Source: Planctomycetia bacterium
GTDB taxonomy: Bacteria > Planctomycetota > Planctomycetia > Pirellulales > PNKZ01
Direction: 5' to 3'
NCBI GenBank assembly: GCA_021413845.1
Contig: JAIOPP010000092.1
Coordinates: 1-64,000, forward strand
DNA: 64,000 nucleotides
A model generated the notes under the pieces. It worked only from the letters and a program-made list of their open reading frames with translations. It was not told the DNA's origin and ran no database searches. Both the position numbers and the translations under genes were made by a program. Shown here one piece after another: positions 107 through 57,507 of this stretch (positions are counted from its first letter, which is position 1; each line of letters opens with the position of its first letter).

Positions 107-280
107 AAAGTAGCAGGCACGTTCCACGTGCCGTCCGCCACGGTTGACTTTAAGCTACGAACAAGGATCGCCCTCAGATATGCATCTGAGGCTATTGAAA
201 GATGCCGAACGTGTTGCGATCGTGCGTCGCGCTCGAACGACGCACGTGGCGGACGGCACGTGGAACGTGCCTGCTACTTT
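107..280. repeat. MITE-like element with 35-bp perfect terminal inverted repeats
   Basis: Bases 107-141 and 246-280 are exact reverse complements over 35 bases, enclosing about 104 bases. Each arm itself carries a small hairpin, GGCACG-TTCCA-CGTGCC. No protein of recognisable kind lies inside. Related sequence occurs at 57307-57415 (shorter, 25-bp arms) and as a single end near 35157-35193. Size and structure resemble a non-autonomous miniature inverted-repeat element, but no target-site duplication is obvious and no transposase is present in the window. Confidence 0.7.
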
Positions 281-20935: not shown

Positions 20936-21392
20936 CGGCTTCTCTCGAAGGGCAGGGGGGAGGCAAGGCGGGCAGATCGGGCAGCAGCAATTACTAGCCG
21001 GCGGGAACGACACGGCACGGGAAGCCGAGGTCGTCGTATTAGGGTTATCGACACACCAAGCGAGGCTCGCGGCAATCGATTCTCCGAAAGGCAGTATATG
21101 CGGGCTGCGTAAATAGTTGCAAGTGCTTTGCCGGATGATGTTTGTGTCGAAAGTGAATTGACTTTGCGCTCCATCTCGGAAGAGGGGGCCTTCAGCGCGG
21201 CCTGGAACTTTGCCAATCCATTGAAGGCAAACGGTTTGCGACGACCGATACTATCATTAATCGATCCCGATTCGTAAGATTCAAGCGACGGCGACCCGGG
21301 TGGGGCCGAAGGCTGCCGGCTTTCGGGCTACGGACAGTTGCCGATCGTGAGCGAAATTCGAGGGAACAACGGCGGGGCGGGGGAGCTTGCTT
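20936..21392. other. divergent intergenic region
   Basis: This 457-base gap separates the leftward PSCyt operon from the rightward FHA kinase. It holds AT-richer stretches near 21110-21170 and 21230-21280. No convincing promoter pair, operator or small gene was found. The kinase ribosome site GGGGGAG lies at 21380-21385. Confidence 0.4.
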
Positions 21393-23171
21393 GTGGCGTC
21401 GATGTTCGTCGTCCGAGGCAACGATCAGGGTTGCCGATTCGAATTGGATGCCGATCAGGTGACGATCGGCCGCGACGTCGGCAACACGATCCAGTTGCAC
21501 GACACGGAGATTTCGCGCCGCCATGCCGTGATCACGCGGGAAGGGCGGCGCTATAAGCTCGTCGACAACCGCAGTTCCAACGGCACCTTCATCAACGGCA
21601 AGCGAGCCACCACGCATGTGCTCGCCGCCGGCGACGAGCTCTTGCTCGGCAGCACGCTCTTGCTGTTTACCGGCGGCGGCGACGAGCCGAGCGAGTTGGC
21701 GAAGAAGATCGACGTGATCGCGCGGCATCGTTCCGACGATCGGTCGCGCATCGTGCGGACGATGCCGCAGTCGGAAGGGCGCGACATGTTCGAAACGCCC
21801 GACGCTTCGGCCGTGACGAGCCCTTGGCTGGCGAAGGCGCGCGGCAACCTCGACATCATGTATCGCACGACGATGGCGATCCGCCACACGCTCGACATCG
21901 ATCAACTGCTGCATGCCGTGATGCAATTGATCTTCGAGTGGGTCGAGTGTGATCGGGGCTGCGTGATGCTGCTCGACGCCGACTCGAAGCGCCTCGAGCC
22001 GCGCGTGCGGCGGAATCGTAAATCGTCGCAAGACGACGAGCGGATCGTCCTCTCGAAGACGATTCTCGATTACGTCATGGAGAAAAACGAAGGAGTGCTC
22101 ACGAGCGACGCCTCCGGCGATCAGCGCTGGAATTCGGCCGCGAGCATCCTGCAGGCCGGCATTCGGGAAGCCATTTGCGCCCCGATGCAAGGCCGGCACA
22201 GCCTCGTCGGCGTGATTTACATCGACACCTCAATGACGCCGCAACAGGTGATCCAAGGGGGGACCGCAACGAAGTTCAACGAGGAGCATCTCCGGCTACT
22301 CGTTGCGATCGCCTACCAGGCGGCGCTCGCCGTCGAAGACACGCGCTACTATTCGGCGATGGTGCAAGCCGAGCGATTGGCGGCCGTCGGGCAGGCCATC
22401 GCGACTCTCTCGCATCATGTGAAAAACATTCTGCAAGGGATCCGCAGCGGCAGCTACCTAATCAAAGAAGGAATTTCGAACCACGACGAGCGAATGGTCT
22501 CGAAGGGTTGGGAGTTCGTCGAAAAGAACCAAGACCGCATCTCGCACATGGTCATGGACATGCTCACGTTCAGCAAAGAGCGTGAGCCGGAGATGCAGCC
22601 GGCCGACTTCAACAAAGTGGTCGGCGAAGTCGTGGAACTGATGGAAGGGCGCGCAAAAGAACGGAACGTGCAGTTGCATTACGAACCGGCCGCGTTCATG
22701 CCGAACCTCACGTTCGACGCCGAAGGGCTGCACCGCGCAGTGTTGAACGTCGTCTCGAATGCGATCGACGCGAGCGACCCGCGGCACCGGCCCGACCCCG
22801 TGGAAGACATTCACGCGACGCACATCGAGAGCGCCGAACCGGCCGAGCCGACGCCGGGCATCGTCGTCGTGCGCACGGCGTTCGAGCCGGGCGAGTCGCT
22901 CGTTTGGGTCAGCGTCGAAGACAACGGCGGGGGCATTCCGCTGGAAGAACAAGAACACATCTTCTCGCTCTTCATCTCCACGAAAGGAAGCCGCGGCACA
23001 GGGCTCGGGCTTCCCGTCAGCATGAAGATCATGAAGGAACACGGCGGCCGAATCACACTCGTCAGCCAACCCGGCCAAGGGGCGACCTTCACCCTGGAAA
23101 TGCCCGCCGTGCTCGTCGACATGACAAGGAACTTAGACGACCCGCCGCTGGGGGAAATGACTAATCACTAA
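21393..23171 (+). CDS. FHA-GAF sensor histidine kinase
   Basis: 592 aa if started at GTG 21393, seven bases after GGGAG; TTG 21387 and ATG 21402 are alternatives. The N-terminal FHA domain has VTIGRDVGNTIQLHD, ISRRHAVI and NRSSNGTFING and should bind phosphothreonine. A GAF domain follows (about 150-310). HisKA has the phospho-acceptor His in ATLSHHVKN, and HATPase ends with EDNGGGIPLEE and GSRGTGLGLPVSM. There is no transmembrane segment, so it is cytoplasmic. FHA input suggests that it couples Ser/Thr phosphorylation to two-component signalling; no response regulator is adjacent. The stop codon lies in the first unit of a 14-bp tandem repeat, and 86 bases of its ATPase region recur exactly at 26032-26117. 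Confidence 0.9.
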   Translation: MASMFVVRGNDQGCRFELDADQVTIGRDVGNTIQLHDTEISRRHAVITREGRRYKLVDNRSSNGTFINGKRATTHVLAAGDELLLGSTLLLFTGGGDEPSELAKKIDVIARHRSDDRSRIVRTMPQSEGRDMFETPDASAVTSPWLAKARGNLDIMYRTTMAIRHTLDIDQLLHAVMQLIFEWVECDRGCVMLLDADSKRLEPRVRRNRKSSQDDERIVLSKTILDYVMEKNEGVLTSDASGDQRWNSAASILQAGIREAICAPMQGRHSLVGVIYIDTSMTPQQVIQGGTATKFNEEHLRLLVAIAYQAALAVEDTRYYSAMVQAERLAAVGQAIATLSHHVKNILQGIRSGSYLIKEGISNHDERMVSKGWEFVEKNQDRISHMVMDMLTFSKEREPEMQPADFNKVVGEVVELMEGRAKERNVQLHYEPAAFMPNLTFDAEGLHRAVLNVVSNAIDASDPRHRPDPVEDIHATHIESAEPAEPTPGIVVVRTAFEPGESLVWVSVEDNGGGIPLEEQEHIFSLFISTKGSRGTGLGLPVSMKIMKEHGGRITLVSQPGQGATFTLEMPAVLVDMTRNLDDPPLGEMTNH

Positions 23172-23248
23172 TGTCTAATCACTAATGTCTAATCACTAAT
23201 GTCTAATCACTAATGTCTAATCACTAATGTCTAATCACTAATGTCTAA
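23161..23248 (+). repeat. 14-bp tandem repeat, six copies
   Basis: The unit CTAATCACTAATGT is repeated six times without mismatch from 23161 to 23244, plus four more bases. The first unit supplies the stop codon (TAA 23169-23171) of the FHA kinase. The unit is itself two related heptamers, CTAATCA and CTAATGT. No spacers are present, so this is not a CRISPR array. Confidence 0.95.
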
Positions 23249-23301
23249 GAGATCCTGAACTAGGGAAGGCTAAGCAGCCTCGTCGTAGGTCGACCATGCT
23301 T

Positions 23302-25971: not shown

Positions 25972-26253
25972 ATGGGGGAGCATGAACGAGATCGTATTGC
26001 TGCGCCGGGCGAGTCGCTGGTCTGCGTGAGTGTCGAAGACAACGGCGGGGGCATTCCGCTGGAAGAACAAGAACACATCTTCTCGCTCTTCATCTCCACG
26101 AAAGGAAGCCGCGGCACGGGGCTCGGACTGCTCGTAAGCAGGAAGAGCGTGAAGGAAGATCGACCGGCCCGACGCATCGTGCTGTCATGCGTCGCTAAGC
26201 GACGCGCCGGTCTTCGTCGCGTTTCCATTCCGGGGATTGAAATGCCCGGCTAA
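25972..26253 (+). pseudogene. histidine-kinase ATPase-domain fragment
   Basis: The reading frame encodes the core of an HATPase domain (VEDNGGGIPLEEQEHIFSLF then TKGSRGTGLGLLVS) and nothing before or after it. Bases 26032-26117 are identical over 86 positions, including synonymous sites, to 22914-22999 of the FHA kinase gene, with weaker similarity on both sides. The fragment lacks HisKA, the N box and the end of the domain and runs directly into the composite hairpin repeat at 26186, so it is not functional. Confidence 0.8.
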
Positions 26254-26414
26254 CGCCAGCCGGTCGCGATGCGACCGAAGAACGGGGCGATCGAAGACTA
26301 TGCGACTTTAGTATGCCGAAGCGAGTCGCGGAGCGACGATCCGCTGGTAGCCGTGGATTTCAATCCACGGCAGAGATGACGCAACGAGGATCGTTTGCGT
26401 CGCATTAGCAACGC
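26186..26414. repeat. composite six-hairpin dispersed repeat, copy 1
   Basis: This 229-base stretch matches 34870-35097 at roughly nine positions in ten over most of its length. It contains in order: GCGTCGC/GCGACGC (26189-26205), a near-perfect CCGGGGAT/ATGCCCGG hairpin, CGGTCGC-GAT-GCGACCG, GTCGC-GGA-GCGAC, CCGTGGATT-TC-AATCCACGG (ends 26370) and GCGTCGC-ATTA-GCAACGC (26397-26414). It follows the kinase fragment. The remaining bases up to 26472 hold only the short GACCACTGATCACC-type simple sequence (26438-26467). Confidence 0.85.
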
Positions 26415-29779: not shown

Positions 29780-29817
29780 CGCAGCAACGCTTTTCTCTTT
29801 AATCGCTCCGTTCAATA

Positions 29818-29839
29818 GCCGGGCATGCATATGCCCGGC
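29818..29839. terminator. solo CCGGGCAT hairpin between convergent genes
   Basis: GCCGGGCAT (29818-29826), loop GCAT, and ATGCCCGGC (29831-29839) form a perfect 9-bp stem. It is the same hairpin as the second module of the composite repeats but stands alone. It may act as a bidirectional terminator or transcript-end stabiliser for the hydrolase and LysM genes. Confidence 0.55.
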
Positions 29840-34869: not shown

Positions 34870-35097
34870 CATGCGTCGCTACGCGACGCGCCGGTTTCGT
34901 CGCGTTTGCATTCCGGGCATTGAAATGCCCGGCTACCGTCGGCCGGTCGCGATGCGACCGAAGAACGAGGCGATCGAAGACTGTGCGACTGTGGTGAGTC
35001 GAAGCGAGTCGCGGAGCGACGATTCGCTGGTAGCCGTGGATTTCAATCCACGGTATCGAGTTGCAGCGAAAGTTAAAGTGCGTCGCGTTAGCGACGC
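34870..35097. repeat. composite six-hairpin dispersed repeat, copy 2
   Basis: Six perfect stems in order: GCGTCGC/GCGACGC (34873-34889), CCGGGCAT-TGAA-ATGCCCGG (34913-34932), CGGTCGC-GAT-GCGACCG (34944-34960), GTCGC-GGA-GCGAC (35008-35020), CCGTGGATT-TC-AATCCACGG (35034-35053) and GCGTCGC-GTTA-GCGACGC (35080-35097). The same order and spacing occur in copy 1 at 26186-26414. The differences between copies fall largely in loops and linkers, with one stem mismatch in copy 1. No protein is encoded. Confidence 0.85.
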
Positions 35098-35156: not shown

Positions 35157-35193
35157 GGTTACGGCACGTGGAACGTGCCTACTACTTTAAAGC
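35157..35193. repeat. solo end of the inverted-repeat element family
   Basis: GGTTACGGCACGTGGAACGT and the following bases up to ACTACTTTA match the right end of the element at 57307-57415 with one substitution. No matching left end is found nearby. The sequence runs to within ten bases of the DUF1501 stop codon. Confidence 0.75.
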
Positions 35194-57186: not shown

Positions 57187-57306
57187 GTGAGAACCTCGGG
57201 CCGTGCGGAAGTGTCTGCCTACACGGTGGATAGATGGGAGCGATCGGGGGCGAATCTTGTAGCGAATTCGGGAAATGCGATCAAGCTCGCTCATGCCGGC
57301 AGCAAC

Positions 57307-57415
57307 GTAGCAGGCACGTTCCACGTGCCGTCCGCCAAGCGCGCCTTCAAGTGGCCGAATCCGACTCTTTTCTGAACGACGCATGCGGTTACGGCACGTG
57401 GAACGTGCCTGCTAC
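57307..57415. repeat. short copy of the inverted-repeat element
   Basis: Bases 57307-57331 and 57391-57415 are exact reverse complements (25 bp) and are nearly identical to the arms of the element at 107-280. The internal part is shorter (about 60 bases) and differs. It sits in the 320-base divergent gap between the SH3b protein and leuS. Flanking this, only the ribosome region of the SH3b gene and the leuS leader were seen. Confidence 0.75.
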
Positions 57416-57507
57416 TTTATGGTCCGTTTGCCGGAAAGTCGCCGTGTCAGTAGAATCGCGATCTTCGCTCCGTTGAAACTTCCAAAGTCGAAGCCCTGTC
57501 GATCTTT

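Follow-up and report, generated by a model that had tools for sequence, protein, structure and literature searches.

REP/BIME (REPIN) repeats and the RAYT or TnpA_REP genes with which they form REPtrons have been described in E. coli, Pseudomonas and Stenotrophomonas. Their transposases fall into classes 2.2-2.8 (PMC6006769), and the repeats form a GTAG superfamily (PMC3733652) marked by a GTAG that immediately adjoins the foot of a perfect palindrome (PMC3733652; PMC6006769). Y1 genes also lie between long inverted repeats that are in some cases doubly palindromic, an arrangement known as TIRYT with double palindromic TIRs (PMC3733652). Subclass 1.2 of the TnpA_Y1 proteins is tabulated as lacking REP and IS structures and as occurring mostly in Cyanobacteria and Bacteroidetes (PMC6006769). 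The Rfam family RF01687 (Acido-Lenti-1) was rated "probably" RNA in its 2010 discovery paper (PMC2864571), and a paper of 2026 continues to treat it as a regulatory ncRNA, speculating that it regulates proteases; among the papers searched, none linking it to a transposase was found.

The window analysed here, a 64,000-nt stretch from a Planctomycetia bacterium, carries two copies of a six-hairpin element for which the original prediction knew no fitting feature class. The element has the defining REP/BIME layout with a cognate tyrosine transposase, and it is very probably (about 85%) a composite, BIME/REPIN-like REP whose transposase is a Y1 HUH tyrosine enzyme of subclass 1.2 type.

Two copies of a six-hairpin element

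The two copies lie exactly where they had been placed, are 87% identical over 229 bp without large gaps, and both contain all six palindromes, equally ordered and spaced (Table 1). The expectation that changes avoid the stems was borne out, with differences at 2 of 84 stem, 2 of 21 loop and 30 of 115 linker positions. Identity is 97.6% in stems and 73.9% in linkers (stems against loops plus linkers, Fisher p = 6e-6), and both copies fold much better than shuffled sequences (z -5.8 and -6.6). Beyond the outer feet of hairpins A and F the copies are no longer similar, and no target-site duplication of >=4 nt was seen by eye at these feet.

The first description overlooked the imperfect inverted symmetry of the element: hairpins A-B-C are the reverse complement of D-E-F, and the element is therefore a head-to-head dimer of one ~90-nt unit. 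Each unit consists of a P1 hairpin (GTCGC..GCGAC), a gap of 8-9 nt, GTAG with hairpin E (CCGTGG..CCACGG), a further ~25 nt and a P2 hairpin with the same core as P1. In copy 2 the gaps from P1 to GTAG and from E to P2 are 9 and 26 nt in the right unit and 8 and 23 nt in the left unit. Two stem pairs, the equivalents of 34918 and 35093, are broken in copy 1, so this copy is slightly decayed. The central spacer, with 7 differences in 47, is common to both copies, so the inward-facing composite was copied as a whole.

Table 1. Positions of the element copies, their parts and the transposase locus (window positions unless contig C57 is named)
Feature	Position	Strand	Detail
Composite element, copy 1	26186..26414	.	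same six-hairpin arrangement as copy 2
Copy 1 hairpins A-F	26189-26205, 26230-26249, 26261-26277, 26325-26337, 26351-26370, 26397-26414		
Copy 1 tetranucleotides	26347-26350 (GTAG)		left unit degenerate (TTAG)
Composite element, copy 2	34870..35097	.	inward-facing inverted units: P2'-E'-P1' spacer P1-E-P2
Copy 2 hairpin A, left-unit P2	34873..34889	-	GCGTCGC TAC GCGACGC
Copy 2 hairpin B, left-unit E, a-type	34913..34932	-	CCGGGCAT..ATGCCCGG
Copy 2 CTAC (GTAG on minus strand)	34933..34936	-	foot of hairpin B
Copy 2 hairpin C, left-unit P1	34944..34960	-	CGGTCGC GAT GCGACCG
Copy 2 central spacer between units	34961..35003	.	conserved in both window copies
Copy 2 hairpin D, right-unit P1	35008..35020 (outer pairing to 35004-35027)	+	GTCGC GGA GCGAC
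Copy 2 right-unit GTAG	35030..35033	+	9 nt after P1, directly at foot of hairpin E
Copy 2 hairpin E, right unit, b-type	35034..35053	+	CCGTGGAT-TTCA-ATCCACGG
Copy 2 hairpin F, right-unit P2	35080..35097	+	GCGTCGC GTTA GCGACGC
Unit left of the transposase gene	C57:14904-14993	+	P1-E-P2
Y1 HUH transposase gene	C57:15010-15483		Pfam PF01797, intact 157-aa frame
Unit right of the transposase gene	C57:15503-15593	-	P2'-E'-P1'

The original prediction also reported the second stem alone at 29818-29839, and this part was mistaken: that stem (29816-29838) is a member of another family of dispersed palindromes. This family reads TAGCC(S)GGATGNATATCC(S)CGG, written also (TTCAA/TTCGA)TAGCCSSGGATGNATATCCSSGG, and has about ten copies in the genome, some of them as inverted pairs 35-60 nt apart and without P hairpins. 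A cognate transposase for it was not found.

Near copy 1, 154 bp of a histidine-kinase gene (21387-23171) are present twice, at 22886-23039 and again 3.1 kb downstream at 26004-26157, where the duplicate stops just before the element at 26186. A tandem 14-bp repeat, AATGTCTAATCACT, follows right after the kinase stop codon with about seven copies (23150-23260). In the congener G002 the kinase gene directly adjoins a metallo-beta-lactamase-fold gene, so a 3-kb segment with capsule/CMP-sugar-type genes appears to have been gained or rearranged in the window. The element is absent from this locus of G002 together with the 3-kb segment, the kinase and metallo-hydrolase genes being adjacent; since the segment is missing too, the absence is suggestive only and provides no clean single-element empty site. 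Among the draft genomes compared, the queA neighbourhood was not syntenic in G002, G003 and G006, and the C8 locus was syntenic on one side only in G003.

A Y1 transposase gene between inverted units

The source genome (7.08 Mb) holds 10-11 units: four in the window, two on contig C8 (one without P2), one on C69, one on C133 (without P2) and two on C57. GTAG stands at the 5' foot of the palindrome in 9 of 10 of them. The two C57 units flank, in inverted orientation, a Y1 HUH gene that is the sole intact gene of its transposase type in the source genome (Table 1). This gene, its flanking units and the scattered units elsewhere have the layout of a REPtron with scattered REPs. The remaining Y1 genes of the genome, namely the IS200-type genes on C155 and C116 (where the check covered the retrieved loci) and the class 2 types on C6, C167 and C67, have neither such units nor RF01687 matches. 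Inverted dimers or clusters in intergenic DNA and a cognate HUH Y1 gene between inverted copies, both expected of REP/BIME systems, were found. The number of units falls short of the tens to hundreds of typical REPs, whereas relatives reach high numbers, with 46 covariance-model matches in G010 and 68 RF01687 matches in G019. Because copy number varies among REP families, the low count in the source genome lowers the case for REP membership and does not exclude it.

Two other palindromes were observed alongside. A second, more abundant REP family, AAAGTAGCAGGCACGTTCCACGTGCCGT, has five copies in the window (107-134, 245-280, 35161-35188, 57303-57331 and 57391-57418) and, by extrapolation, about 500 per genome; two of its pairs flank a class 2-like Y1 transposase frame (NHVH, WQ, YIAENP) on C67, a second REPtron of the source genome. 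A fourth palindrome, GAGCGGCCGGTGTGARCCGRCCG, adjoins two element copies on other contigs (L066:5186 and L067:9306).

The C57 transposase carries the signature of subclass 1.2 (DH[VI]H, WQ, Y---Q--HH, about 150 aa), and DHxH, W and Y---Q--HH are invariant in 21 of 21 aligned homologues, all of which have Y---Q--HH instead of the class 2 Y---NP motif. On these sequence motifs we class the element as REP-like and assign it to subclass 1.2 instead of to the class 2 REPs. Since all 21 homologues bear the signature of a subclass published without REPs, a substrate-like repeat is added to subclass 1.2; the departure from "no REP or IS structures nearby" is a re-description of the subclass and not an exclusion from it.

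Of 58 genomes of the order, 37 have homologues of the transposase, and most of these homologues stand between inverted units with the same layout and other sequences, for instance GTCCCGTAGGGAC / GTAG-CCCAGCGATTCATCGCTGGG / GTCCCGTAGGGAC, so that stem sequences differ between genomes while the geometry around homologous genes stays. A strict descriptor (a P hairpin, an NAGCC hairpin and a P hairpin with the same core), designed after the first 30 loci had been viewed, matched 14 of these 30 homologues and 20 of 60 flanks, with 0 matches in 40 rounds of shuffled flanks. Applied unchanged to 80 new loci from named genomes, it matched 27, compared with 1 of 149 distal stretches. The 27 loci represent at least nine phyla: Planctomycetota, Verrucomicrobiota, Lentisphaerota, Acidobacteriota, Calditrichota, Nitrospirota, Bacteroidota, a deltaproteobacterium and Zixibacteria. 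The gap from P1 to the guide is 8 or 9 nt in 31 of 35 units, and the guide is relaxed to NTAG across genomes. By looser criteria, an outward-pointing NAGCC hairpin is present at 60 of the 80 loci (121 hairpins point outward and 23 inward), and the P1 and P2 cores agree in 42 of 90 cases, compared with 19.5 when permuted (maximum 29 in 2000).

Arrangement of the units varies. The two window copies and the one on C8 have their units turned inward (P2'-E'-P1' / P1-E-P2), which is unusual, since outward-facing units make up 21 of the 22 dimers from other genomes. Inward dimers would be left behind by a circle junction, or by the centre of an outward-outward array such as that on G010 C143. The inverted dimers of G001 are a/b heterodimers. 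In G010, where about 20 sites were read directly, the six-hairpin composite recurs, and P1 is at times swapped wholesale for a different palindrome. Upstream of one transposase (L076, G040:C42) lies a tandem array P-E-P-E-P-E-P whose units have P hairpins in common, so (P-E)n-P may be the basic repeat. Three genomes (G026, G033 and G056) have unit or RF01687 copies and no close subclass 1.2 transposase; these are possibly orphan repeats left after gene loss.

The same architecture bears on whether the short P palindromes belong to the repeat unit at all. They could be pre-existing target sites between which only the E hairpin, a classical REP, inserts, as other GTAG REPs reportedly lie inside target palindromes (T. 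roseum GTAG-23; PMC3733652), and the core common to P1 and P2 would suit such an origin. Against this, the P core GTCGCGTAGCGAC is nearly confined to units in the source genome (9 of 10 exact sites in 7.08 Mb), and complete palindromes stand on both sides at fixed gaps of 8-9 and ~25 nt in many phyla. Insertion into ready-made palindromes is thus an unlikely account, and the reading of P1, E and P2 as one composite REP unit is preferred.

Probable DNA-level palindromes and the RF01687 motif

Conservation of the structure was examined in an alignment of 19 units from the source genome and the congener G001. Pairing is kept in 97.3% of stem cells, and two-sided stem changes number 37 cells, compared with 13.6 in shuffles, in agreement with the suggested selection on structure. 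These changes are of the types T-A to G-C, G-C to C-G and G-C to A-T. A genome-wide covariance-model search, the check proposed along with the original prediction, also succeeded. The model, trained on G000 and G001 units only and with rough E-values, found units in 14 of 58 genomes, the highest count for one genome being 46. When the two training genomes are left aside, there are 113 matches in 12 other genomes of the order; 6 of these matches, in 4 genomes, are no more than 300 nt from a homologous Y1 gene.

The prediction had left the level of selection as DNA or RNA, and the first alternative fits better. A structured non-coding RNA family, in the form of dispersed RNA genes or mRNA 3' elements, is suggested by the covarying stems, by the position of each window copy between convergently oriented genes or gene remnants, where transcription could occur, by the listing of RF01687 as an sRNA and by the discovery paper's "probably". 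The one-sided (G-U type) cells, however, are about 3 against the 37 two-sided ones, and such a near-absence of G-U intermediates would be expected of DNA palindromes and less of RNA, which points to the former. Copies also form mirror-image pairs that occupy both strands. The element showed no promoter-like site, and its only terminator-like site is at chance level. The scarcity of one-sided changes, the inverted flanks of a single-strand-DNA transposase and the lack of a promoter-like site together fit DNA palindromes over an RNA gene. At Rfam gathering thresholds no riboswitch or known RNA was found in the window, the sole match being a tRNA.

The distribution of RF01687 itself speaks further against an RNA gene. 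An Rfam scan of the REPtrons placed this "sRNA" on the E + P1 half of the unit, as the complement strand. In the first 20 loci, which were not chosen blindly, 29 of 31 matches are no more than 350 nt from the transposase gene; of the 29, 26 are on the minus strand if upstream of the gene or on the plus strand if downstream. The matches thus cluster beside the gene on both sides in a fixed orientation. A further 20 loci, mostly failures of the strict descriptor, gave 8 more matches, all near the gene and 7 in the expected orientation. Controls at eight loci (five further Y1 genes in the source genome and three distant homologues) gave a single match, at L098, a distant homologue that is flanked by units. 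Over 58 genomes the presence of RF01687 tracks that of the transposase (25/3 versus 7/23, p = 3e-7). The window copies score 30.0 bits (35007-35053) and 21.4 bits (34913-34959), below the gathering cut-off of 37, and so by the rule are not RF01687 members; the C57 REPtron scores 33.7 and the homologous units of relatives 37-59. Homology between the window copies and RF01687 is supported by the shared architecture and the intermediate genomes. Considering these observations, an RNA family is a very improbable explanation of the element, and the DNA-level composite REP is retained.

An origin from an ordinary IS200/IS605 insertion sequence, as a miniature form made of its decayed ends, is equally hard to credit: the transposase is nearest in sequence to IS200/IS605 TnpA, with ISHp608 and other IS200-type transposases as its PDB relatives, but the end hairpins of those elements are recognised on one strand while the flanks here are inverted, and in place of a near-identical multi-copy gene there is one gene of this type in the source genome and a single- or low-copy gene with 33-53% identity between genomes, yet multi-copy units. 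We know of no IS counterpart to the internal P-E-P modularity or to tandem P-E-P-E-P arrays such as that at L076.

Proposed mechanism and relation to known systems

For the composite REP reading, we infer by analogy that the transposase mobilises the units. Hairpin E would be bound on single-stranded DNA, for example the lagging-strand template, as suggested by TnpA_REP and IS608 (PMC8266576), and NTAG would act as the guide that chooses the cut site, as with TnpA_REP and IS608 TnpA (PMC8266576; PMC6006769). The enzyme could then cut, copy and rejoin the units, which would multiply as non-autonomous elements. To judge from the constant 8-9 nt gap, the flanking P hairpins would be part of the recognised substrate; a dimeric mode of action, or a role of these hairpins in holding the strand open, might be the reason. 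The window copies would represent a circularly permuted, inward-facing dimer that spread whole at least once. Inspection of the P2 tails by eye gave no universal CT cut site, with CT, CA, CC and AT all seen.

With less confidence than the REP assignment itself, we lean towards a broader proposal in two parts: that the substrate of subclass 1.2 is tripartite (P, 8-9 nt, NTAG-E, ~25 nt, P) in at least nine phyla, its P hairpins being recognition parts absent from known REP and IS200/IS605 systems, and that RF01687 is a fragment of this substrate and not an RNA gene. If so, a transposase subclass described as having no substrate would gain one, and hence a testable role, and an orphan Rfam family still in use as an sRNA annotation would be accounted for. 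The naturally varied stems on a fixed geometry would suit studies of how hairpin, guide and spacing are read and of what the extra hairpins contribute.

Among described systems, the REPtrons of REP/BIME type share with the element a perfect palindrome with GTAG at its 5' foot, an intergenic location, inverted dimers of two subtypes, a cognate HUH Y1 gene between inverted copies, and units that outnumber the gene. Differences are the two extra palindromes (P1 and P2) at fixed distance, the guide relaxed to NTAG, a transposase with Y---Q--HH and not the class 2 Y---NP, the low copy number in the source genome and the inward dimers. TIRYT resembles the element in its Y1 genes between long, partly doubly palindromic inverted repeats, but the element lacks the GGGGWSAS motif, has a GTAG-type REP foot and belongs to another transposase subclass (PMC3733652). 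Published subclass 1.2 TnpA_Y1 proteins agree in DH[VI]H, WQ, Y---Q--HH, a length of about 150 aa and low copy number (PMC6006769), whereas most members examined here carry hairpin units on one or both flanks and, unlike the published range, come largely from Planctomycetota, Verrucomicrobiota and Acidobacteriota. RF01687 corresponds in its two hairpins, in the CUA beside the long hairpin and in the spacing, all as the complement of E + P1; its Rfam entry differs in having no P2 and no transposase context and in being labelled an sRNA (PMC2864571).
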